From Emticicia sp. CRIBPO (GTDB lineage Bacteria > Bacteroidota > Bacteroidia > Cytophagales > Spirosomataceae), in contig NZ_JAAAKV010000001.1 of assembly GCF_009905725.1 (NCBI RefSeq), positions 124,001 to 188,000 of the forward strand: a stretch of DNA of 64,000 nt, in the 5' to 3' direction. The notes beneath the pieces were generated by a model. That model was not told where the DNA came from and ran no database searches. It saw nothing but the letters and a program-made list of their open reading frames with translations. This document shows, piece after piece, positions 47,838 through 57,277 of the stretch. Within the stretch, counting starts at the first letter, position 1; every line of letters starts with the position of its first letter. The position numbers were made by a program, and so were the translations under genes.

Positions 47838-48764
47838 CTATTTTCCAGCCTTCAATGTATTTTTAAGTTGCTCCAACTCCTCCCATTTGCCGTCTACGGC
47901 CAGCTGGGCTTGCTTCGGCCATGAAGTCGGGTCAAACATCTTAAACCTGCTGCCCGAATTGGATAAGATTTCTTTTAACAGCAGGGGCTCCGATTTAGCC
48001 AATGATGCAAATGTGGTTATCTTATAGGCTTTAAGTATTTCTTCAATTTTAGGTCCTATGCCTTCCACGATCTTAAGGTCGTCACTCTTTTTGACCACCG
48101 GCTTTTTTGCCACCGCCGGTTTTGCTGCGGGAGCACTTTGGGGAGCTGCTGCTTTGACAACCGGCTCAGCTTTAGCCTTCACCTCAGGGACGGCTACTTC
48201 TTCTTTGCTTACTTTTTCAGGCTTTTTGTCCTTATCTTTCTTATGATCTTTGTCTTTTTTTTTGTCCTTTTCCCCTTTCTTATCCTCTCCCTTATGTTTT
48301 TTGTCTTTATCCTTCTTCTCTTCCTTCTTATCTTTCTCCTTTTTCCCCTCTCCTTTCTCCTTCTTTTTCCCTTTTTCCTTCTCCTTAAGGTTCTTCTTCA
48401 GGTCTTCGAGGCTCCCGTTAGAATAAAATTCATCCACTACTTTTCCGTCTTTCCATTTCCGGCTGATGATTTCATGCCATCTGAGTTTTTCTCCTGAGCG
48501 ATTGGTAAAAACAAAGGTAAATTTAGAATGTGAGCGGTCTTCTTCCGTAAAGTGATCATGAAGTATAATTTCATCGACTGAAGACATTTCATTGAAAAAA
48601 CTAGTCAGCCAGTCTCTTTTTTGTTTCTTCGAAGTAGTGTGCTCGCCGTTTTCAGATCTGGTTGTGACGTTATCAGCAAAATAGTAATCAAAAGCCTCAA
48701 TTATCTGACCCTTACTTACTAATTCATCCAAAGCTTGAAGTTCCTTTTTATTTTTCATTGTCAT
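47838..48764 (-). CDS. NTF2-like / KEKE linker / helix-hairpin-helix fusion protein
   Basis: 308 residues (an ATG two codons in is an alternative start). Residues 1-120 resemble a SnoaL/NTF2-like domain (LQALDELVSKGQIIEAFDYYFAD, RWHEIISRKWKDGKVVDEF). Residues 121-186 are an almost pure Lys/Glu/Asp tract (KEKE), followed by an Ala/Pro/Val linker to about 222. Residues 226-308 are a helix-hairpin-helix of the COG3743 kind, with KIVEGIGPKIEEIL. The last part normally contacts DNA or mediates protein contacts; no enzymatic residue is visible. There is no signal peptide, so it is cytoplasmic. A clear case of fusion by a low-complexity linker; function unknown. Confidence 0.75.
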   Translation of the reverse strand: MTMKNKKELQALDELVSKGQIIEAFDYYFADNVTTRSENGEHTTSKKQKRDWLTSFFNEMSSVDEIILHDHFTEEDRSHSKFTFVFTNRSGEKLRWHEIISRKWKDGKVVDEFYSNGSLEDLKKNLKEKEKGKKKEKGEGKKEKDKKEEKKDKDKKHKGEDKKGEKDKKKDKDHKKDKDKKPEKVSKEEVAVPEVKAKAEPVVKAAAPQSAPAAKPAVAKKPVVKKSDDLKIVEGIGPKIEEILKAYKITTFASLAKSEPLLLKEILSNSGSRFKMFDPTSWPKQAQLAVDGKWEELEQLKNTLKAGK

Positions 48765-49063: not shown

Positions 49064-49387
49064 ATGGCAAATAAAGCATTGGAAATCACAGACTCAAATT
49101 TTAAGGATTTAATTAATTCTGAAAAACCTGTTTTGGTTGACTTTTGGGCTGAGTGGTGCGGACCTTGTAAATTGATAGGACCAGTTGTTGAAGAAATCGC
49201 AGGTGAATATGAAGATAAAGCCGTTATAGGCAAAATGGACGTGGATGCCAATTCTGTAACTCCATCTGAGTTCGGAATCCGTTCAATTCCTACGCTGATG
49301 ATCTTTAAGAAAGGCCAGTTGGTTGATAAAATCGTTGGAGCAGTGCCTAAGCACATCCTTGTACAAAAATTAGAAGCAGCTATCTGA
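49064..49387 (+). CDS. trxA: thioredoxin
   Basis: 107 residues from the ATG at 49064; an upstream in-frame codon at 49028 would add an unlikely leader. The active site is FWAEWCGPCK with both cysteines, and the cis-Pro is in RSIPTLMIFKKG. It reduces cytoplasmic protein disulfides using thioredoxin reductase. It stands alone and ends at a bidirectional terminator. Confidence 0.95.
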   Translation: MANKALEITDSNFKDLINSEKPVLVDFWAEWCGPCKLIGPVVEEIAGEYEDKAVIGKMDVDANSVTPSEFGIRSIPTLMIFKKGQLVDKIVGAVPKHILVQKLEAAI

Positions 49388-49404: not shown

Positions 49405-49443
49405 AAAAGAAGCCCCGGATCAACTATCCAGGGCTTCTTTTAT
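49405..49443. terminator. bidirectional terminator
   Basis: AAAAGAAGCCC and GGGCTTCTTTT with an inner GGA/TCC pair and one mismatch. It lies between trxA and the aminotransferase, whose stop codon is inside it. Confidence 0.85.
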
Positions 49444-50616
49444 TTTAGAGCATGCCAGGATAATCTCTTCATGGGTAATGTTCAGAGGCGGTGCAATCCG
49501 CATGGCGGAGTCACAGTATAAAAACCAGTCTGTGATCACGCCTTTCTCTATGCCTTTGTCAATGGTTTCTTTTAATACTTCAAAGTTTTCCATCTGGGCA
49601 GCCAGCATCAGTCCTTTTCCACGGATTTCGCTGATCTTCGGGTGTTTAAGCTGTTCTTTGATCAGTTTTTCTTTCCCGGGAATATCATCAAGGTTAATTT
49701 CATTTCTGATTACATTCAATGTGGCCAGCGAAGCCGCACAGCTCACAGGATGCCCGCCGAAAGTAGTGATATGCCCTAGCACAGGGTTTTCTTTAAATAC
49801 AGACATGATCTCTTTAGGAGCAATAAACGCTCCCAGGGGCATGCCGCCGCCCATACCTTTGGCAGTCAATAAGATATCGGGTAAAATTCCGTAATGCTCA
49901 GAAGCCCAGAATTTCCCGGTCCTGCCGAATCCCGTCTGAATTTCATCAAATATCAGTAAAGTACCCGTCGATTTACACTTTTCAGCCAGGGCATGCAGAT
50001 AATCCGCATCGGTTTCTGCCACCCCGCACTCTGCCCCGATCAGCTCAATGATCACAGCAGCAGTATTTTCATTGATAAACTTTAAGTCTTCAGGCTCATT
50101 CCTTCTAATTTTACGGATGTCCGGCAAAAGTGGCCTGAAACCTCTCCTGAACTGCTCCTCACCAAGAGACAAGGCTCCGTGGGTAGACCCATGATAAGCA
50201 TTCGGAAAGGCAATGATTCCAGACCTCCCGGTATATTTTTTAGCCAGTTTCAGGGCTCCTTCCACGGCCTCAGTACCTGAATTGGTAAAGTAAACATTAT
50301 CCAGCTTCTTCCCTTTGGAGGATGAAAGGCCCTCTAAAGTAGCTACCAGGGCATTGGCAAGCATGATCTGGGGGCTTTGCAGGTATTCGCCATACACCAT
50401 CTGGTGCAGATACTTATCTACCTGGTCTTTGATGGCTTTGACGACTTCCGGATGGCGATGGCCCACATTACTGACAGAAATACCGGATATCAGGTCAATA
50501 TAAGGTTTCCCGTTTTTGTCATATAAAAAAATACCTTCGGCCCTTACGAGTTCAAGAGCCAAAGGTGAGTCCGACGTCTGAGCGACGTTGGCCAGAAATA
50601 TCTGCTTTAAATCCAT
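49420..50616 (-). CDS. class III aminotransferase, last gene of the amidoligase operon
   Basis: 398 residues from the ATG at 50616, one base after the preceding stop. DLISGISVSNVGHRHP and NSGTEAVEGALKLAKKYTG are the PLP-phosphate segments, IFDEIQTGFGRTGKFW is the Asp that contacts the PLP nitrogen, and LTAKGMGGGMPLGAF holds the Schiff-base Lys (K in AKGM). The family includes ornithine, acetylornithine, GABA and diaminobutyrate transaminases, and exact specificity cannot be set. It moves an amino group to or from a terminal amine or aldehyde. In the operon it would supply or recycle an omega-amino acid building block. Confidence 0.88.
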   Translation of the reverse strand: MDLKQIFLANVAQTSDSPLALELVRAEGIFLYDKNGKPYIDLISGISVSNVGHRHPEVVKAIKDQVDKYLHQMVYGEYLQSPQIMLANALVATLEGLSSSKGKKLDNVYFTNSGTEAVEGALKLAKKYTGRSGIIAFPNAYHGSTHGALSLGEEQFRRGFRPLLPDIRKIRRNEPEDLKFINENTAAVIIELIGAECGVAETDADYLHALAEKCKSTGTLLIFDEIQTGFGRTGKFWASEHYGILPDILLTAKGMGGGMPLGAFIAPKEIMSVFKENPVLGHITTFGGHPVSCAASLATLNVIRNEINLDDIPGKEKLIKEQLKHPKISEIRGKGLMLAAQMENFEVLKETIDKGIEKGVITDWFLYCDSAMRIAPPLNITHEEIILACSKIKEALDS

Positions 50617-50617
50617 G

Positions 50618-51817
50618 TTAATTAGTTTCAAAAAATGCCGAGCTACCTCCTACCCAGTCAAAATTCTTGTTGAAGTCCACTCCGATCATCTTGCCGCGGC
50701 TGAGTCTGGCCAGGTTGGTCATCAGTTTAGGCCGGGCCTGTCCGTCTTCCCAGATATAAAGCATCCTGATCTCTGCTTTGATCAGCTGACCTTCCACATC
50801 CCTGATGCAGGGATCATAAGTGATTTTCTGCTGCAGAAGATAGTTTTCAGGATCGGTAATGCTTTCGATGTCTTCTTTTGTCACGTCGATTTTGACCCCG
50901 CTACCCGCAAAAGAAAACAGAGGTTTCAGGACAAAATCTTCCAGATTTTCAGGTATTTCTTTCAGATCAGATAAATAATGAGACTGAGGTACATACTTGC
51001 TTTTCAGCAAGGGCATGCAAAATTTACTGACCCTGAAAAACCAGTTGGGATGGGTGACCCACTGAACATCAACCTCATCCTGGGGTCTGAATTCAGTTAC
51101 CAGGTCAGGGTAATTCTTTTCGAGGTCGTCAAAAATAAGACGGTTGTAAATTCTCTTTACAAGAATCTTCCTCCCGTCTTTCTCATAATATAGATGCTTA
51201 CCCGATTTGGTCAGTTTTGTAATACACACGGCTTCAATGCCCCAGAATTGCCTGGTTAAGGCAAAATCCAGCCTCGTTTTTTGTTTTTCCGGGTATATCT
51301 CCAGTAAAATGGTATTTTCCGGATCTTCTCCGCCGGTCAGGAAGTCCTTCATCTGGGTCGAATACTGGTAGGCATTCATCCGGTTAAAGAACTCACTGTA
51401 GTTTTTATCGACGTCAAAGAATTTCCTGTACTTTGAAGACAGATAGGACTGATAGGCAAACAACGAAGGAAATCCCTGTAATTCAATCAGTTGTGGCTCG
51501 TATTCACTCTCACTGTTCTTTGTTACCGCAAAATCAATCGCCAGAAAATGAGGATGGGCCGACTCACCGGGTACATTGAGGTGTGGTGGAATAGCCCTGT
51601 CGGTCTTCGCTTTGAAATCATCTTTCATGATCCTCTCAATGATTTCATTACAGGCCTCCAGCAGTTTGATTTTAAGTGACCTGTCCACAAATACGGGTGT
51701 TTCGGCCACCCTGAAATCAAGCATACCCGGAAACTCACGATCAATTTCTGCAAGCATAAGTTGGTATTGCTCAACCGAAAATGAAGCATTGAACCTGTTT
51801 CTTGATAAGTTGTTCAA
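50618..51817 (-). CDS. ATP-grasp-like protein
   Basis: 399 residues from a TTG; the next ATG in frame is at 51757 and would remove part of what looks like conserved sequence, so the true start is uncertain. The middle and end have ATP-grasp features: EDFVLKPLFSFAGSGVKID (lysine and glycine-rich ATP loop), YLLQQKITYDP and AEIRMLYIWEDGQ (acidic Mg-binding end). The N-terminal half (FLAIDFAVTKNSE; QLIELQGFPSLFAYQ) resembles glutathione synthase-like substrate domains. The distinctive order suggests a diverged amide ligase. It lies 12 bases after the amidotransferase and one base before the aminotransferase. Confidence 0.72.
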   Translation of the reverse strand: MNNLSRNRFNASFSVEQYQLMLAEIDREFPGMLDFRVAETPVFVDRSLKIKLLEACNEIIERIMKDDFKAKTDRAIPPHLNVPGESAHPHFLAIDFAVTKNSESEYEPQLIELQGFPSLFAYQSYLSSKYRKFFDVDKNYSEFFNRMNAYQYSTQMKDFLTGGEDPENTILLEIYPEKQKTRLDFALTRQFWGIEAVCITKLTKSGKHLYYEKDGRKILVKRIYNRLIFDDLEKNYPDLVTEFRPQDEVDVQWVTHPNWFFRVSKFCMPLLKSKYVPQSHYLSDLKEIPENLEDFVLKPLFSFAGSGVKIDVTKEDIESITDPENYLLQQKITYDPCIRDVEGQLIKAEIRMLYIWEDGQARPKLMTNLARLSRGKMIGVDFNKNFDWVGGSSAFFETN

Positions 51818-51829
51818 AATATTAAAGAT

Positions 51830-52663
51830 TTAATAGTTAACGCCTTGTTCTACCAATTGGCCTGTTGCTATTCGCAAAAAGTTAGGAATAATAACAGATT
51901 CAGTAAACATGATCTTTTCAGGGTCTTCCAGGTACTCGAGCATATCATTGAATTTCTCTTCACCGTACTCATTAATCACGGCCGCCCTTTTCTCTTCGGT
52001 CTGAAAATACCGGTACATCCCGTCAGCATCTGCTTCTGGGTGAAACTGCGTTCCGATGATCTCAGGGGTAAACCTGACAGCCATGATGGCCCTTTCGAGC
52101 GGCACATGAGGCCTTTCCTTTTCAATACACAAAATACTGGCTCCGAAAGCCTCTATTTTATCAAAATCAGCCTGAATGGCCTGATAATCTCTTGAATCGA
52201 CAGCCCAGAAGGGTTCTTCGAGGCCTTCAAAAATGGCTTCGTGCTCACCGGTTTCTGTCTTATGCACAGGCATAACACCGAAAGAAGTTGATTTTCGCTT
52301 ACTGACCTGACTGAACTGGAAATGCTGAATTAAAAGCTGGAAAGAATGACAAATGGCAAACAGGTGTTTCTTCTTTTCATTTTCCTGGTTGTACTGTATC
52401 AGCTGATCAATAAATCCGAAATAATTGGCTTCCCAGGTATGTCCTTCCAAAAGCGGGCTTCCCGGCCCGCCGGTAGAAATGAAAACGTCAAAATTATGAA
52501 TCTCCGGCACAGCCTCTTCCCCCCTGACATCAAAAATCTCATATGAGCCTTCAAAGTCGCTTTTATCGAAAAATTCTTCTAAAAGCATTTTTATACATCG
52601 CATCCCCTCATTCGGGACACCTTTGTAAAGATCAAGAATACCTACTTTTAGTTTTGTTGACAT
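51830..52663 (-). CDS. class I glutamine amidotransferase
   Basis: 277 residues. The catalytic Cys is in AICHSFQLL and the His-Glu pair in GTQFHPEAD, matching the triad of GuaA/PabA-type amidotransferases; STGGPGSP is the oxyanion-side loop. The nucleophile context, CHSF where most have C-x-G, is unusual but occurs in stand-alone GATase1 proteins. It would split glutamine and hand ammonia to a partner ligase; no synthetase domain is fused, so the neighbouring ligases are the natural acceptors. The C-terminal 90 residues are helical and not part of the core. Confidence 0.85.
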   Translation of the reverse strand: MSTKLKVGILDLYKGVPNEGMRCIKMLLEEFFDKSDFEGSYEIFDVRGEEAVPEIHNFDVFISTGGPGSPLLEGHTWEANYFGFIDQLIQYNQENEKKKHLFAICHSFQLLIQHFQFSQVSKRKSTSFGVMPVHKTETGEHEAIFEGLEEPFWAVDSRDYQAIQADFDKIEAFGASILCIEKERPHVPLERAIMAVRFTPEIIGTQFHPEADADGMYRYFQTEEKRAAVINEYGEEKFNDMLEYLEDPEKIMFTESVIIPNFLRIATGQLVEQGVNY

Positions 52664-52703
52664 TAAAATAACAATTGGTTAAAATGCAAAGGTCGGTAAT
52701 AAT

Positions 52704-53804
52704 TCAATAAAGTCCGAATTTTGTTTCGGAAACCATATAATCCACCACCGCTTTCAGGTCATTGGTTTCTTCAAAAACCTTCAGTTGCCTGTCTGCTCCG
52801 GTTCCGTTTCTGAGAATCTCATACACATACTCCACCTCTTTTCTTGAGCCCAGTTCATCCACCACGTCATCAATAAAGACCAGGAGTTCATCCACCAGCT
52901 GGTAGAAAGGCACTTCTTCTTCTTTACCGAAGTCTATCAGGTTGGCTTTTATGCCGTAACGGCCCGCCCGCCATTTGTTTTCGTTGATCAGCACACGTCT
53001 GTATGACCTGAAACTCAGGTTCTGAAGCCTCAGTTTATGTATTTTTGCCACTATGGCCTGCATAATAGCTGCCAGGCAGATAGTTTCATCGGCCCTGAGC
53101 GGCACGTCACAGATCCTGAATTCGATGGTCGGAAAAAACGGGTGAAGACGGATATCCCACCAGATTTTCTTACCGTTATCAATGCAACCGGTTTTAACCA
53201 GCAGGTTGATATAATTGTCATATTCAGAGGCACTGCTGAAGTAATCAGGAATACCGGTCCTCGGGAATTTATCAAAAACCTTCGAGCGATACGAGTTAAA
53301 CCCGGTATTACGTCCGCACCAGAACGGAGAATTGACCGACAGGGCAAAAATGTGAGGCAGGAAATACCTGACCTCATTCATGATTTTGATGGCCTCATTC
53401 CGGTCTTCGATGCCGACGTGCACGTGTAAACCAAAGATAAGGTTACCTCTGGCTACGTCCCTCATTTCGTCAATAAGCTTGTCATACCTGTCGTCAGGGG
53501 TGATCAACTGATTTTGCCAGTCGGAAAAAGGGTGCGTTCCGGCTGCGGCGATGTGCAGATTTTGCTTTGAAGCCAGGTCAAGCAACATTCTTCTGAGATA
53601 AGTCACCTCTTCGCGGGCCTGTTGAATGTTTTCGCAGATGTTGGTTCCCATCTCAACAACCGCCTGGTGCATTTCCTGCTTGATACGCTCCTGAAGAATG
53701 ACCTTACCGCCTTCTACAAGCTGCGACATGTGTGATTTCAGTTCCCGGGTTTCAGGATCAATGGTCTGAAATTCTTCTTCGATCCCTAGTGTAAATAGTC
53801 CCAT
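52704..53804 (-). CDS. carboxylate-amine ligase YbdK/GCS2 family
   Basis: 366 residues, the usual length for YbdK (COG2170). LGIEEEFQTIDPETREL is the Glu-rich metal/ATP start, AAAGTHPFSDWQ and FGLHVHVGIEDRN form the active-site loops, and RLHPFFPTIEFRICDVPL continues it. E. coli YbdK has weak glutamate-cysteine ligase activity. The reaction joins a carboxyl to an amine using ATP. Seven bases separate it from the ATP-grasp gene upstream, and 40 from the amidotransferase downstream. Confidence 0.9.
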   Translation of the reverse strand: MGLFTLGIEEEFQTIDPETRELKSHMSQLVEGGKVILQERIKQEMHQAVVEMGTNICENIQQAREEVTYLRRMLLDLASKQNLHIAAAGTHPFSDWQNQLITPDDRYDKLIDEMRDVARGNLIFGLHVHVGIEDRNEAIKIMNEVRYFLPHIFALSVNSPFWCGRNTGFNSYRSKVFDKFPRTGIPDYFSSASEYDNYINLLVKTGCIDNGKKIWWDIRLHPFFPTIEFRICDVPLRADETICLAAIMQAIVAKIHKLRLQNLSFRSYRRVLINENKWRAGRYGIKANLIDFGKEEEVPFYQLVDELLVFIDDVVDELGSRKEVEYVYEILRNGTGADRQLKVFEETNDLKAVVDYMVSETKFGLY

Positions 53805-53811
53805 AGATTCT

Positions 53812-54879
53812 TTATTTTTTCTTACTTGCTTTCTTCTTTTCCTCCTTCGGAACTTCCTTTTCGGCTTTCACTGATTTCTCAGGCTTTGATTCTTTGGCTG
53901 CTTTTGCCGGTTTCGCGGGCTCAGGACTGATGGCTGCTCCGGCTATAAAAGTACCCCAGGTACAGTTGTTTCTACCATCCACATGGCTCTTGGCTTTCTC
54001 AATGGCAAACTTAGCGGCATGTTCCACAATCCATTCAAAGTTTTCCTGTCCGACAGAATGTACATCTGCATCCGGAGCAGGGTTACAGAAATCAATGGCG
54101 TAAGGAATACCATCCCTGATCGCAAACTCCACAGTGTTAAAGTCATATCCTAAGGCGTGATTCAGTCTCAGAACGTAGTCATGAATAGTCGCCATCAGTT
54201 TCTTATGTGCCTCACCCTGTGTTTTCGGCTGGGTGGCATATCTCAGGTGATGCGGGTTTCTTGGTTCATACGGCATGATATGCACATATTTCCCACCCAG
54301 ACAATAGCATCTGTAATAATCAGTAAACTGTATCTCTTCCTGAAGCAACATCACCAGCTGGCCGGTTTCTTCATGTTTATACCATAAATCATTCGGATCA
54401 TCCACCCTGTAAACGCTTTTCCAGCCACCTCCCGAGTGCGGCTTCATATAGGCAGGGAAACCGATCTTATCAAACATATAACCCCAGTCCATCGGAAATT
54501 TCAGGTTTCTGAACGACTGGTCTGAAGTGTCTGTTGGTCTTTCCTTTGAAGGCAGCAACACGGTGTTGGGTACCGGAACTCCCAGTTTAATGGCCAGGCA
54601 GTTGTTGAAGAATTTCTCATCTGCACTCCACCAGAAAGGGTTATTGATAACTGCCGTGCTGCAAAGGGCGGCATTTTTAAGATACGCCCTGTAAAAAGGA
54701 ACATCCTGTGAAATACGGTCGATGATCACCGCGTAGTCACTCTGAACACCCTGTTCTACCTTATCAATCAATACAGCCTCGCCTACTATATTTTTGCTGT
54801 CACTCAGCTGATTTACCCTGTCAATAAACGCCCATGGAAATGTATTTTCCATTCCGAAAAGAATTCCGATTTTTTTCAT
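53812..54879 (-). CDS. ATP-grasp ligase with Lys-rich tail
   Basis: 355 residues. KIGILFGMENTFPWAFIDRV is the substrate domain; FPAYMKPHSGGGWKSVYRV is the ATP loop with lysine and glycine-rich residues, LLQEEIQFTDYYRCYCLGG follows, and FNTVEFAIRDGIPYAIDFCNPAPDADV carries the Mg-binding acidic residues. The C-terminal 45 residues are Lys/Glu/Ala/Pro-rich and disordered. It resembles D-Ala-D-Ala ligase-like and RimK-like amide ligases. Substrates unknown. Its tail has a composition like that of the KEKE protein 6 kb away, but the two are not otherwise related. Confidence 0.83.
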   Translation of the reverse strand: MKKIGILFGMENTFPWAFIDRVNQLSDSKNIVGEAVLIDKVEQGVQSDYAVIIDRISQDVPFYRAYLKNAALCSTAVINNPFWWSADEKFFNNCLAIKLGVPVPNTVLLPSKERPTDTSDQSFRNLKFPMDWGYMFDKIGFPAYMKPHSGGGWKSVYRVDDPNDLWYKHEETGQLVMLLQEEIQFTDYYRCYCLGGKYVHIMPYEPRNPHHLRYATQPKTQGEAHKKLMATIHDYVLRLNHALGYDFNTVEFAIRDGIPYAIDFCNPAPDADVHSVGQENFEWIVEHAAKFAIEKAKSHVDGRNNCTWGTFIAGAAISPEPAKPAKAAKESKPEKSVKAEKEVPKEEKKKASKKK

Positions 54880-54914
54880 GTGATTAATTTAGAAGATTAA
54901 AGTTATAATTTAGT

Positions 54915-55625
54915 TTAGTTTAAGTAGGCAAGCAGGTACTCGGGAAACATATTGTTCCACAAGGGCCAGTCATGCGGAGCCCATTTCTTTTCATCATACC
55001 AGTGATTGATCTGTTTTTCTCCCAGTAATCTTGACATCCTGATGTTGTCTTCCCTGCAGATGTCCCAGTCGGAAGTGCCCAGCACAATTCTCATATGGTT
55101 GTACTTCCAGGATTCTGCATTGGCCAGAAAATCAACCGGGTTGTTAAAGTAGACATTGTCGTCATAATAACCCTTCATAAAACTCCGGATATCAAATGCC
55201 CCGCTCATGGCAATCAGAAAGTCCGTAACGCCGGGATTTCTGAAAGCGAAATTGGCCGCATGATAAGCTCCGAAACTGCAACCGGCAGTCCCTATCCGGT
55301 GTACATTAGATTCTTTCTGAATCTGGGGGACCAGTTCCTCGATAAGAAACCGTGAATAAAGATTGTAGTTGTGAATTTTCTGGGCAGGAGAAAGATCTTT
55401 GGCATAGAAGGACTGAAAGTCAATGCTGTCAATGTTGTAAGTCTTTACCTTGCCACCGTCAATCCACGGCCTGATAGCTTCTAAAAGACCGGAATCCCTG
55501 TTTTGGAATGCATTACCCATAGAGGTCGGAAACATCAGAATCGGATATCCCCAATGACCGGTAACCAACAGGTCTATCGACCGCCCCATCACATGAGAAT
55601 AAAAATTAATTACATTTTCCTGCAT
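54915..55625 (-). CDS. alpha/beta-hydrolase esterase, first gene of the amidoligase operon
   Basis: 236 residues without a signal peptide. The nucleophile elbow is GCSFGAYHAANF (Ser), the acid is probably in LGTSDWDICRED, and the His is in WAPHDWPLW. This matches the cytoplasmic esterase group COG4947 of the esterase D/PF00756 type. In the operon it could cut or transfer an acyl group on the ligation product. It starts the operon and is divergent from a second esterase of the same superfamily, 21 bases between start codons. Confidence 0.85.
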   Translation of the reverse strand: MQENVINFYSHVMGRSIDLLVTGHWGYPILMFPTSMGNAFQNRDSGLLEAIRPWIDGGKVKTYNIDSIDFQSFYAKDLSPAQKIHNYNLYSRFLIEELVPQIQKESNVHRIGTAGCSFGAYHAANFAFRNPGVTDFLIAMSGAFDIRSFMKGYYDDNVYFNNPVDFLANAESWKYNHMRIVLGTSDWDICREDNIRMSRLLGEKQINHWYDEKKWAPHDWPLWNNMFPEYLLAYLN

Positions 55626-55646: not shown

Positions 55647-56537
55647 ATGAAAAGTTTTATAATTTTAAATAAAAATATCAGTATTAAAAAAGAAAATAAA
55701 TTTATTTATTTTCTGGTAATTATTTTTTCAATGAACATTACTCCTACGAAAGCTCAAACCCAAAATATCGAAACTGTATCCCAAACCATACACTCTGAAG
55801 GTCTCGGCAGAGATTTGAAATTAGACATTTATGTTCCGAAAAACAGCAGATCATCCAGCAAGCTGAAGACCATCTATATGAATGACGGCCAGGACGGTGG
55901 CCAGCTGGAGCTCCCCAAACTCCTGGAAAATTACCCGCATCATGATTTCATCCTGGTAGCAATACACACCAACGAAAACAGGCTCTCAGACTACGGCACC
56001 TCGTATATTCCGGATTACAAAAACAGGGGCGACAAAGCCACGCTTTATATGCAGTTTGTAAAAAATGAGCTGACGCCTTTTATCAGAAAAAATTACCCTT
56101 CCAGTAACAGGCCGGAAGACAACTATTTCTGCGGCTTTTCTTTAGGTGGCCTGTCGGCCATTGATATTGTCTGGGAGAACCCAGGCATATTTTCAAAAGC
56201 AGGGGTTTTCAGCGGGTCGTTCTGGTGGAGAAGCAAAGCTTATGAAGAAGGGTATGACGACGACCAGGACAGGATCATGCACACCAAAATCAGAAATTCT
56301 GCCCACAGAGACGGACTAAGCTTCTGGTTTGAATGCGGCACGGATGACGAGAAAGACGACAGAAATAAAAACGGCATTATTGACTCCATTGACGACACGC
56401 TGGATCTGATCTCTGAACTGAAAAAGATAGGATATCAGAGCAGGCACATCAAATATGTGGAAGTCAAAGGTGGTCAGCATAATTTTGATACCTGGAAAAA
56501 GGTTTTCCCGGAGTTTCTCGACTGGGCACTACAATAA
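55647..56537 (+). CDS. secreted esterase (PF00756 family)
   Basis: 296 residues from the ATG at 55647; a longer frame back to 55503 runs inside the divergent esterase and is rejected. An uncleaved or long signal (KKENKFIYFLVIIFSMNITPTKAQ) precedes the mature domain. YFCGFSLGGLSAIDIVW is the nucleophile elbow (Ser), WFECGTDDEKDDRN includes a probable acid and a Ca-like Asp loop, and VKGGQHNFDTWKKV has the His. Resembles enterochelin-esterase-like and feruloyl-esterase-like hydrolases that act outside the cytoplasm. Followed after 14 bases by an L,D-transpeptidase, likely the same transcript. Confidence 0.85.
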   Translation: MKSFIILNKNISIKKENKFIYFLVIIFSMNITPTKAQTQNIETVSQTIHSEGLGRDLKLDIYVPKNSRSSSKLKTIYMNDGQDGGQLELPKLLENYPHHDFILVAIHTNENRLSDYGTSYIPDYKNRGDKATLYMQFVKNELTPFIRKNYPSSNRPEDNYFCGFSLGGLSAIDIVWENPGIFSKAGVFSGSFWWRSKAYEEGYDDDQDRIMHTKIRNSAHRDGLSFWFECGTDDEKDDRNKNGIIDSIDDTLDLISELKKIGYQSRHIKYVEVKGGQHNFDTWKKVFPEFLDWALQ

Positions 56538-56551
56538 ACAAATGATTTAAA

Positions 56552-57277
56552 ATGAAATACCTGGTACTGATCCTCTTCATCTTCTTTGCAGCCTCTTCTA
56601 TGAATTTTCTCGAAAAACAACTTGAATATCCCAGGGTAAAGGAAGCCAATCAACTAAAAAGAAAAGGCATACAGGACATGCTGAAAGCGATTGCTGTGGA
56701 TGAAGATCATTTTGATATTTTCATCCGGGCTTTTAAACAGGAAAGAAAACTGGAAGTCTGGGTAAAAAACAAAAGCGAAAGGAAATACAAACCGCTTAAG
56801 ACCTACGACTTTTGTCAGACCAGCGGGGTATTGGGACCGAAAAGAAAATCAGGAGACCTGCAGATTCCCGAGGGTTTCTATAAAATAGACCTTTATAACC
56901 CCGAAAGCAGTTACCATTTATCATTCAGAATTAATTATCCCAACGCCTCGGATCTGATCCTGGGAGATCAGGAAAACCCAGGCAACGAAATCTTCATTCA
57001 CGGAGACTGCGTCACTGTGGGCTGTATACCTTTGGGAGACGACCACATCAAAGAATTGTATCTGCTGTCGGTACTTTCGAAAAACGGTAACGGCCAGGCG
57101 AATGTCCATATTTTCCCGGCCTGGATGAAGGGAGAAAATTACGACAAACTAAACGGTCAGAGTCCGGAGCATCTGAAGACATTCTGGGCTACACTCCTGC
57201 CCGGATTTGAATATTTCGAAAAAACCGGCTCCCTTCCTGTGGTTAAAGTAGACAAAAAAGGGAAATATTATCTTTAA
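56552..57277 (+). CDS. L,D-transpeptidase catalytic-domain protein, YafK-like
   Basis: 241 residues with signal/anchor MKYLVLILFIFFAASSMNFLEKQ. The catalytic segment is EIFIHGDCVTVGCIPLGDDH, which gives the conserved His, Ser/Thr-x-G-Cys and Cys nucleophile of the YkuD domain, of the YafK type. E. coli YafK (DpaA) cleaves lipoprotein from peptidoglycan; other members cross-link it. The reaction here is therefore on peptidoglycan at the periplasmic side, but direction cannot be told. It shares a transcript with the esterase upstream and overlaps the converging LuxC gene by four bases. Confidence 0.85.
   Translation: MKYLVLILFIFFAASSMNFLEKQLEYPRVKEANQLKRKGIQDMLKAIAVDEDHFDIFIRAFKQERKLEVWVKNKSERKYKPLKTYDFCQTSGVLGPKRKSGDLQIPEGFYKIDLYNPESSYHLSFRINYPNASDLILGDQENPGNEIFIHGDCVTVGCIPLGDDHIKELYLLSVLSKNGNGQANVHIFPAWMKGENYDKLNGQSPEHLKTFWATLLPGFEYFEKTGSLPVVKVDKKGKYYL

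Follow-up and report, generated by a model that had tools for sequence, protein, structure and literature searches.

A conserved amide-ligase operon in Bacteroidota that may build a small gamma-glutamyl-type peptide

The operon and its genes

The stretch of DNA analysed here (the window, 64,000 nucleotides of the genome of Emticicia sp. CRIBPO, a member of the Bacteroidota) carries six closely spaced genes on its minus strand, adjoined by a further esterase gene on the plus strand:

EST, 54915-55625, minus strand: 236 aa; alpha/beta-hydrolase of the PF00756 esterase family
AG1, 53812-54879, minus strand: 355 aa; ATP-grasp ligase with a predicted LysX/ArgX, Ddl, RimK fold
GCS, 52704-53804, minus strand: 366 aa; PF04107, YbdK-type GCS2 carboxylate-amine ligase
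GAT, 51830-52663, minus strand: 277 aa; PF00117, stand-alone class I glutamine-amidotransferase fold
AG2, 50618-51817, minus strand: 399 aa; circularly permuted ATP-grasp, predicted fold
AT, 49420-50616 counted from its ATG, minus strand: 398 aa; PF00202 class III PLP aminotransferase
EST2, 55647-56537, plus strand: divergent PF00756 esterase adjoining EST; start codon inferred

A sequence-only reading had described six minus-strand open reading frames here, and all six were confirmed at these coordinates, along with the gaps of 35, 7, 40, 12 and 1 bp that separate them in the order EST, AG1, GCS, GAT, AG2 and AT. AG2 starts with TTG, its earliest in-frame ATG being codon 21, and the mechanical reading frame of AT likewise opens at a TTG, at 50631. 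Promoter-like sites are about as frequent as in shuffled sequence (12 found, 14.7 expected) and terminator-like sites exceed that background (15 against 7.6), in scans that are not interpretable for Bacteroidota. Plasmid and phage searches with AG1 returned no match, and membership in an anti-phage defence system was rejected, as PADLOC anti-phage models gave 0 matches among the six proteins at E <= 0.001. A thioredoxin gene on the opposite strand ends 32 bp past AT; an eye count over 80 named loci (the best 80 of 584 AG1 matches) places such a gene close to the operon in 13, a proximity that may be plain synteny.

Family membership and predicted folds

The six proteins were assigned to Pfam and NCBIfam families at E <= 0.01. 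Judged by its profile scores, GCS is a member of the GCS2/YbdK carboxylate-amine ligase family, with 212 bits against PF04107 (cut-off 21), 308 against TIGR02050 (176.4) and 556.6 against NF010039 (371), and it matches the YbdK structure 1r8g at E=1.9e-65. Its metal motif in the window reads GIEEEF (GxExE-type), and G7 and E9-E11 are invariant in 25 sequences. GAT, at 37.9 bits against PF00117 (cut-off 22.8), is by the same kind of evidence a class I glutamine amidotransferase domain, whose Cys-His-Glu triad (C105-H208-E210) is intact and invariant in 35 sequences. In EST a putative triad, Ser117-Asp188-His218, was assigned by motif; the serine is replaced in three of 29 aligned sequences (L054, L074 and L084), and catalysis is therefore probably not kept in all lineages.

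The presence of two ATP-grasp enzymes in the operon, AG1 and AG2, had been proposed from the sequence and is supported by predicted folds and Foldseek searches. AG1 matched RimK_fam, LysX and R2K_2 profiles, in every case below the cut-off. Assignment to the LysX/RimK type by profile was rejected on these scores (26.9 bits against TIGR00768, cut-off 143.4; 21.5 against LysX_arch, cut-off 275.6), as was membership of the R2K clade (PF18299, 18.6 bits, cut-off 26.2). The predicted structure of AG1 has LysX and ArgX as its top Foldseek matches, with Ddl, a RimK domain and the graspetide ligase PsnB also among them, and because this fold match is clear, AG1 probably works like a LysX/RimK-type ATP-grasp enzyme, though the profiles do not file it as one. 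K146, G150-G152, E181, E251, D263 and N266 are invariant in 36 aligned sequences, and residues 326-355 form a Lys-rich tail that is modelled with low confidence.

AG2 has no match in Pfam or NCBIfam at E <= 0.01. Its AlphaFold2 model (pLDDT 95.2) gave 32 Foldseek matches, all from one superfamily (E 8e-14 to 2e-7, TM normalised to the query 0.43-0.61), the best being 3n6x, yeast and plant GSS, YjfC, YgiC and Cp1B, at sequence identities of 10-15%. By sequence profile YgiC was reached at E=0.016, and hhalign gave 42%, over 63 columns, where three control profiles gave 0.1-1.7%; the two ATP-binding lysines K265 and K298 and the glycine-loop residues G305 and G307, which align to YgiC, are invariant in 59 sequences. 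AG2 is thus predicted, from its modelled structure, to be a circularly permuted ATP-grasp enzyme of the fold shared by eukaryotic glutathione synthetase, glutathionylspermidine synthetase and YgiC/YjfC.

Gene order across Bacteroidota

The conserved core of the operon is a set of five genes, EST-AG1-GCS-GAT-AG2, to which AT is an addition of the window's own family. In a 296-genome draw of Bacteroidota, all five core genes stand in the same order and orientation at 25 of the 91 other AG2 loci, a subset of them in the same order at 30, and AG2 alone at 36, some of these loci ending at contig edges; among the best 80 of 584 AG1 matches, 65 named loci have the five genes in order. This arrangement exceeds chance. 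Besides the five core genes, EST2 was the only cluster of open reading frames of at least 70 aa to recur in at least 19 of 92 loci; it is divergent from EST in 45 of the same best 80 of 584, is found close to AG2, encoded on the other strand, at 13 of the 91 AG2 loci, and is a conserved neighbour of the operon. The neighbours of lone AG2 genes, inspected by eye in 20 sequences, shared nothing beyond an amidohydrolase that occurs in one group. Locus rows were left out where the calling of reading frames missed AG1 (L224, L241, L249, L252, L259), AG2 (L052) or AG3 (L280), and G066, where AG2 is in two fragments, is represented by the larger one.

AT, whose nearest solved structures are acetylornithine and putrescine aminotransferases, follows AG2 in 1 of the 91 phylum-wide loci, two of which come from the window's own family. 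In 150 genomes of that family AT was found in 143 (E <= 1e-130), including 21 that have neither AG1 nor AG2, and it lies within 8 kb downstream of AG2 on the same strand in 90 of the 120 genomes that hold both genes; in G405 and G434, both without AG2, it directly follows AG1 at gaps of 172 and 210 bp. The family linkage table gives one place per genome and omits fragments (AG2 in G352, G370 and G426; AG1 in G406), and in G381 the lower-scoring, AG2-adjacent of two AT copies was used, the counts 47 and 90 each including one such choice. AT was accordingly rejected as a phylum-wide core gene and retained as a family trait, and because its linkage is found mainly within the family, omega-amino-acid chemistry, which the sequence-only reading had named for class III aminotransferases, falls outside the core. 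The proposal of a six-gene unit, which was to be abandoned should the genes not co-occur elsewhere, holds for the five core genes, which keep their order and co-occur even when unlinked, but fails for AT outside the family.

Co-occurrence of the ligases

Among 296 Bacteroidota genomes (five draws, treated as the same genome set since their handles agree, with no more than 20 non-matching genomes named per draw), AG1 was found in 108, GCS in 97 and AG2 in 92, and all three together in 84, in 25 of which they lie at three separate loci. A third ATP-grasp enzyme, AG3, occurs in 66 genomes, every one of which also has AG1, and GAT in 70, of which 69 have AG1 and all 70 have AG1 or AG2. Match thresholds were 1e-3 for AG1 and AG2, 1e-40 for AG3, 1e-90 for GCS, 1e-25 for GAT, 1e-130 for AT and 1e-10 for M29 peptidases; the counts and Fisher values ignore shared descent. 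The 150 genomes of the window's family divide into 124 with AG1 and AG2, three with AG1 only, none with AG2 only and 23 with neither. AG1 is the hub of the system. Since 18 of the 108 AG1 genomes are without GCS, 19 without AG2 and 39 without GAT, no single fixed reaction order fits all. In a quick tree of the 101 AG1 rows within length limits, the matches in G007, G087, G160 and G287 are long branches of 33-41% identity and may be paralogues; without them AG1 occurs in 104 of 296 genomes and AG1 without AG2 in 15.

In 12 of the 19 genomes with AG1 and without AG2, another circularly permuted ATP-grasp gene directly follows AG1 (PF14403 in the one member scanned), and these loci additionally hold GAT (11), EST (7), a second esterase (8) and AG3 (3). 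In the window's genome AG3 lies elsewhere, and no system gene was among the neighbours listed there (L271), one of 20 AG3 loci hand-chosen for inspection from the 66 genomes.

Between 28% (AG1, AG2 and GCS all present) and 36% (AG1) of the sampled Bacteroidota thus carry this set of ATP-dependent amide ligases, three to four in number, that occur together. That the set is kept even when its genes are apart indicates that a small peptide-like product is probably built, and its breadth across the phylum suggests a general physiological compound and not a strain-specific secondary metabolite.

Proposed pathway and alternatives

The conserved order, the co-occurrence and the predicted folds are best read as a multi-ligase pathway that would build a small gamma-glutamyl-type (isopeptide) oligopeptide or peptide amide, an explanation with about an even chance of being right; the gamma-linked peptide made by amide ligases, as first suggested from the sequence, remains the best reading, and it may be an osmolyte, a thiol or a wall-linked compound. 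In the scheme inferred here, GCS would activate a carboxylate (the gamma-carboxylate of glutamate in relatives of GCS) and couple it to an amine, AG2, being glutathione/glutathionylspermidine synthetase-like, would couple a further amino acid or amine onto the carboxyl end, and the LysX/Ddl/RimK-like AG1, with AG3 where present, would attach another unit; the individual reactions, their substrates, the sequence of the steps and a product that is a free small molecule all belong to this scheme. EST may act on an ester, thioester or amide, or may have turned structural. The N-acetylglutaminylglutamine amide (NAGGN) pathway, which consists of an asparagine-synthetase-like amidotransferase and a GNAT/ATP-grasp fusion, was rejected, since neither defining domain is found among the six proteins at E <= 0.01.

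A more specific and bolder version of this explanation, in which the product would be a glutathione-like thiol or a trypanothione-like polyamine conjugate, is doubtful. GCS would then form gamma-Glu-Cys (or gamma-Glu-X), AG2 would add a third residue or a polyamine, and EST would be an S-acyl-thiol esterase, an activity known within the PF00756 family. The nearest folds of AG2, which include glutathione and glutathionylspermidine synthetases and the peptide-spermidine ligases YjfC and YgiC, the gamma-glutamyl ligase fold shared by GCS, and the nearby thioredoxin gene, synteny permitting, all speak for it; however, AG2 is just 10-15% identical to those neighbours, YbdK-type enzymes are not known to be efficient Glu-Cys ligases, glutathione needs neither AG1 nor AG3, and the EST serine is missing from some lineages. 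Tentatively, one may picture the carriers making a glutathione- or trypanothione-like compound of their own: a YbdK-type ligase, together with a bacterial enzyme related to eukaryotic glutathione synthetase, would build a gamma-glutamyl peptide, which one or two additional ATP-grasp ligases would lengthen, possibly to a thiol or a polyamine conjugate. If true, much of Bacteroidota would share a core metabolite that has gone unrecognised.

The role of GAT separates the peptide pathway from a second alternative, that GAT supplies one of the ligases with ammonia taken from glutamine and so yields a carboxamide-capped peptide. The triad typical of class I and a GGPG motif that is likewise conserved agree with such a donor, but GAT has no fused or fixed synthetase partner: in 10 checked genomes whose operon is without it the gene lies elsewhere, and of 89 genomes with AG1 and AG2, 35 have no GAT. 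Moreover, an M29 peptidase gene takes its place between GCS and AG2 in five loci from four genera, all five in genomes without GAT. A close M29 occurs in six of the 35 GAT-less genomes and in none of 34 GAT-bearing controls hand-chosen from 54 (p=0.025, a small contrast of four to five genera); the other 29 GAT-less genomes, including G001 and G006 with an AG1-GCS-AG2 operon, have no close M29. Because M29 replaces GAT at those five loci, GAT is more likely, on this genomic evidence, to be a hydrolase than the ammonia supplier of the sequence-only reading, and the donor role is unlikely. In the peptide pathway GAT, or M29 in its stead, would hydrolyse an amide of the intermediate or product, in trimming or turnover.

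It is quite unlikely that the system instead tags or modifies proteins, with the RimK/LysX-like AG1 adding amino acids to a protein or carrier and GAT or M29 and the esterases removing them. The best folds of AG1 do include LysX/ArgX, some of which work with the LysW carrier, a RimK domain and PsnB, and its weak R2K_2 match recalls a clade of ATP-grasp enzymes for which protein modification has been proposed (PMC4431377). Against this, no recurrent small carrier or precursor gene appeared among the clusters of open reading frames of at least 70 aa in the 92 loci. Metabolism of a cyanophycin-like storage isopeptide is highly improbable: genes homologous to cyanophycin synthetase and to an S51 peptidase are located 0.1 to 5 kb past AG2 in L050, L064, L065 and L093 (Pfam was run for the L050 members only), but these four loci, out of 91, come from a single genus (g11), and such genes often cluster by themselves.

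Whichever form the proposed peptide takes, identifying it would put names to several large enzyme families in one step and bear on which low-molecular-weight peptides or thiols Bacteroidota use. The gene set and its natural pattern of presence and absence are suited to comparative metabolomics.

Relation to known systems

Among the papers listed from the open-access literature, with few subscription papers included, none was recognised as describing this operon. A close parallel to the peptide pathway is glutathione/homoglutathione biosynthesis, in which a GCS-fold ligase also adjoins a circularly permuted GSS-fold ligase; here, however, GCS is of the YbdK type, AG2 is distant from GSS in sequence, and the system also includes esterases, a protein of the GATase fold and one or two ATP-grasp ligases besides AG2. 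Glutathionylspermidine synthetase and YgiC/YjfC share with AG2 their fold, their size (386-387 aa, 399 in AG2) and a short catalytic segment in which both lysines and the glycine loop align, beyond which AG2 aligns by fold only. E. coli ygiC and yjfC are preceded by DUF1190 genes and not by GCS or AG1. Peptide-spermidine ligase activity of YgiC/YjfC is cited in PMC12568646.

A pairing of a GCS-like ligase with a glutamine-amidotransferase-like thiol peptidase has been interpreted as peptide synthesis (PMC2588565, in excerpt). That system likewise joins a carboxylate-amine ligase to a GATase-fold peptidase; it differs in its ligase family, and the excerpt names proteobacteria and mentions no ATP-grasp partner. 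The carrier-bound lysine/arginine pathway of LysX/ArgX and LysJ resembles the operon in the top structural matches of AG1 and in the argD/LysJ-type class III aminotransferase that follows the operon in the window's family, but AT stands outside the widespread core and the six proteins include no kinase or reductase of that pathway. A survey of amidoligase operons by Iyer and others (Mol BioSyst 2009) reportedly predicted linked GCS2 and ATP-grasp ligases to be peptide makers.

Genes and predicted folds

The six open reading frames described in the sequence-only reading, which lie on one strand with gaps of 35, 7, 40, 12 and 1 bp, were all recovered as claimed. They are given here in order of transcription with their Pfam and NCBIfam matches, along with two related genes.

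Genes of the operon (window 49420-55625, minus strand) and related genes
EST: esterase, PF00756
AG1: ATP-grasp ligase; RimK/LysX and R2K_2 matches, all sub-threshold
GCS: YbdK-type carboxylate-amine ligase, PF04107; NF010039 (carboxylate-amine ligase) far above cut-off
GAT: class I glutamine-amidotransferase-fold protein, PF00117
AG2: ATP-grasp ligase; zero Pfam or NCBIfam matches
AT: class III PLP aminotransferase, PF00202
EST2: second PF00756 esterase, adjoining EST, divergent
AG3: third ATP-grasp, elsewhere in the window's genome (G000:C5:108100-109260)

The AG2 model (pLDDT 95.2) had as its top Foldseek matches a putative glutathionylspermidine synthase (3n6x), the yeast, plant and human glutathione synthetases, YjfC, YgiC and Cp1B, and other folds were absent below E 0.1. 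YgiC was also matched by the AG2 sequence profile (E 0.016), and the profile comparison gave 42% probability over 63 columns, the controls AG1, GAT and GCS giving 0.1, 0.3 and 1.7%. One study cites YgiC and YjfC as peptide-spermidine ligases and describes Cp1B as a fungal ligase that makes a pseudodipeptide (PMC12568646). The AG1 model (pLDDT 84.9) matched the folds of LysX/ArgX, Ddl, a RimK domain and PsnB; its last 30 residues (326-355; window 53815-53904) form a Lys/Ala/Glu-rich tail with pLDDT under 50, and this Lys-rich tail is poorly conserved in the alignment.

Conservation of the unit

AG2 was present in 92 of 296 Bacteroidota genomes, the window's own included, and the other 91 loci were compared. 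The order EST-AG1-GCS-GAT-AG2 was found on the same strand in 25 of these and EST-AG1-GCS-AG2, with GAT absent from the row, in nine; 21 held other subsets of the core in the same order, and 36 held AG2 without other core genes. When open reading frames of at least 70 amino acids from all 92 loci were clustered, the five core genes formed the five largest clusters and EST2 the sixth. With AG1 as query, all five core genes stood in order in 65 of the 80 named loci (the best 80 of 584 matches) and EST2 was divergent in 45 of the 80, the genera spanning Emticicia, Lacihabitans, Runella, Dyadobacter, Larkinella, Hymenobacter, Chryseobacterium, Kaistella, Maribacter, Polaribacter and others. Among six named loci compared with the window, that of a Lacihabitans (L127), a genus of the Leadbetterellaceae (Cytophagales), gave the longest match, which begins at a LuxC-like gene, takes in EST2 and all of the operon and extends to the thioredoxin gene.

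The ligase genes also occur together irrespective of linkage. AG1, AG2, GCS, AG3 and GAT were present in 108, 92, 97, 66 and 70 of the 296 genomes, with AG1 and AG2 together in 89, AG1 and GCS in 90, AG2 and GCS in 87 and all three in 84. In these 84 the three genes were linked in 45, only AG1 and GCS in 11 and only AG2 and GCS in three, and they lay at three separate loci in 25. AG1 accompanied AG3 in 66 of 66 genomes and GAT in 69 of 70; pairwise Fisher tests among AG1, AG2, AG3 and GCS (six pairs) gave p from 1e-21 to 1e-56 with genomes treated as independent. Within the window's family (n=150), 124 genomes had both AG1 and AG2, three AG1 alone, none AG2 alone and 23 neither, the last comprising seven genera among those listed.

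Variants with other ligases

AG3, an ATP-grasp_4 enzyme (from the L050 member), lay just upstream of EST-AG1 in 21 of the 80 best-matching named loci. Among 20 hand-selected AG3 loci, an EST2-like esterase, an M17 aminopeptidase and AG3 were consecutive in five (L272, L273, L274, L276, L278), and L279 held the M17-AG3 pair.

Sixty further AG1 loci were examined; 41 came from genomes that also hold AG2 at an unlinked position and 19 from genomes without AG2. In 12 of the 19, AG1 adjoins, in the place of GCS, another ATP-grasp (k2), a circularly permuted PF14403 enzyme (L247 member). These loci also hold GAT (11), EST (seven), a second esterase (eight; PF00756 in the L247 member) and AG3 (three), and thus a permuted ATP-grasp, AG1 and GAT recur jointly though the permuted enzyme differs; no convincing sequence relation between k2 and AG2 was found (hhalign probability 7.5%). 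GCS was encoded elsewhere, at 48-51% identity, in six of the 12 genomes and was not found at the threshold used (1e-90) in the other six. On a quick AG1 tree the 11 k2 loci with usable AG1 fell on one side of one branch (SH-aLRT 99). The AG1 of two loci of the window's family (L205, L206; genomes G190, G249) fell in different parts of that tree, a pattern that suggests that the operon has moved horizontally.

GAT and its possible substitute

GAT keeps the class I triad. At five loci (L055, L063, L067, L099, L101) GCS and AG2 are separated by an M29 peptidase gene, assigned from the Pfam match of the L067 member, with an extra 137-codon ORF between M29 and AG2 at L067; the five genomes (G255, G093, G271, G251, G055), of four genera, all lack GAT. 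A close M29 (at least 60% identity) occurred in 6 of 35 AG1+AG2 genomes without GAT versus 0 of 34 hand-selected GAT-bearing genomes (p 0.025), nine of which hold distant paralogues (29-36%). Mapping the M29 trait, with four usable rows, onto the AG1 tree took four changes, at least two by supported branches. In contrast, ten genomes of groups f16 and f34 have no GAT in the operon but hold it elsewhere. Against replacement, a close M29 is missing from 29 of the 35 genomes without GAT, and two of these, G001 and G006, retain an operon of AG1-GCS-AG2. Because M29 stands in the place of GAT in the five GAT-less genomes above, we infer that GAT may act as a hydrolase.

Proposed pathway

The smallest scheme that fits, to which we give an even chance, is a multi-ligase peptide pathway. 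GCS would form a gamma-glutamyl-type amide, AG2 would extend it at a carboxyl end, as do glutathione and glutathionylspermidine synthetases, AG1 (and AG3) would add further units, and GAT or M29 would cleave an amide. EST would take an ester or thioester as substrate, or might now be structural: its serine, the putative nucleophile, is replaced in 3 of 29 aligned sequences (L054, L074, L084), where EST nonetheless stays in the operon, so its role there may have become structural or otherwise changed. A specific thiol or polyamine version of the scheme seems unlikely. Systems that make peptide metabolites with linked ligases of the carboxylate-amine and ATP-grasp types are already known as a class, and no description of this operon was recognised in a search of open-access papers; what looks new is the gene composition, how widely it occurs and the resemblance of AG2 to glutathione synthetase.

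Accessory and neighbouring genes

AT is an accessory gene with a distribution of its own. It followed AG2 within 6.5 kb at one of the 91 phylum-wide loci, only two of which are from the window's family. Of the 120 genomes of the 150-genome family draw that have both, 47 place AT no more than 150 bp downstream of AG2 and 90 place it no more than 8 kb away on the same strand; 21 of the 150 have AT without AG1 and AG2.

A thioredoxin gene (window 49067-49387) converges on AT, and thioredoxin lies near the operon in 13 of the 80 best-matching named loci, counted by eye. The window also holds a YkuD-domain protein related to LdtF/DpaA/YafK (56552-57277; 134.9 bits, under the 365 cut-off) and an ORF in which a very long, charged segment rich in Lys and Glu precedes a short C-terminal part (47838-48764). 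AG2 lies directly 3' of an amidohydrolase gene (cluster c7; PF07969 in the L056 member) in 11 loci (L107, L110, L114-L122), with a 4-base overlap in six. Beyond AG2 in four loci of genus g11, apparently Chryseobacterium (L050, L064, L065, L093), are homologues of cyanophycin synthetase and S51 peptidase, accompanied by a small conserved gene (c24). Two family genomes (G405, G434) have a divergent AG1 (56 and 52% identity) and no AG2, with AT directly after AG1.
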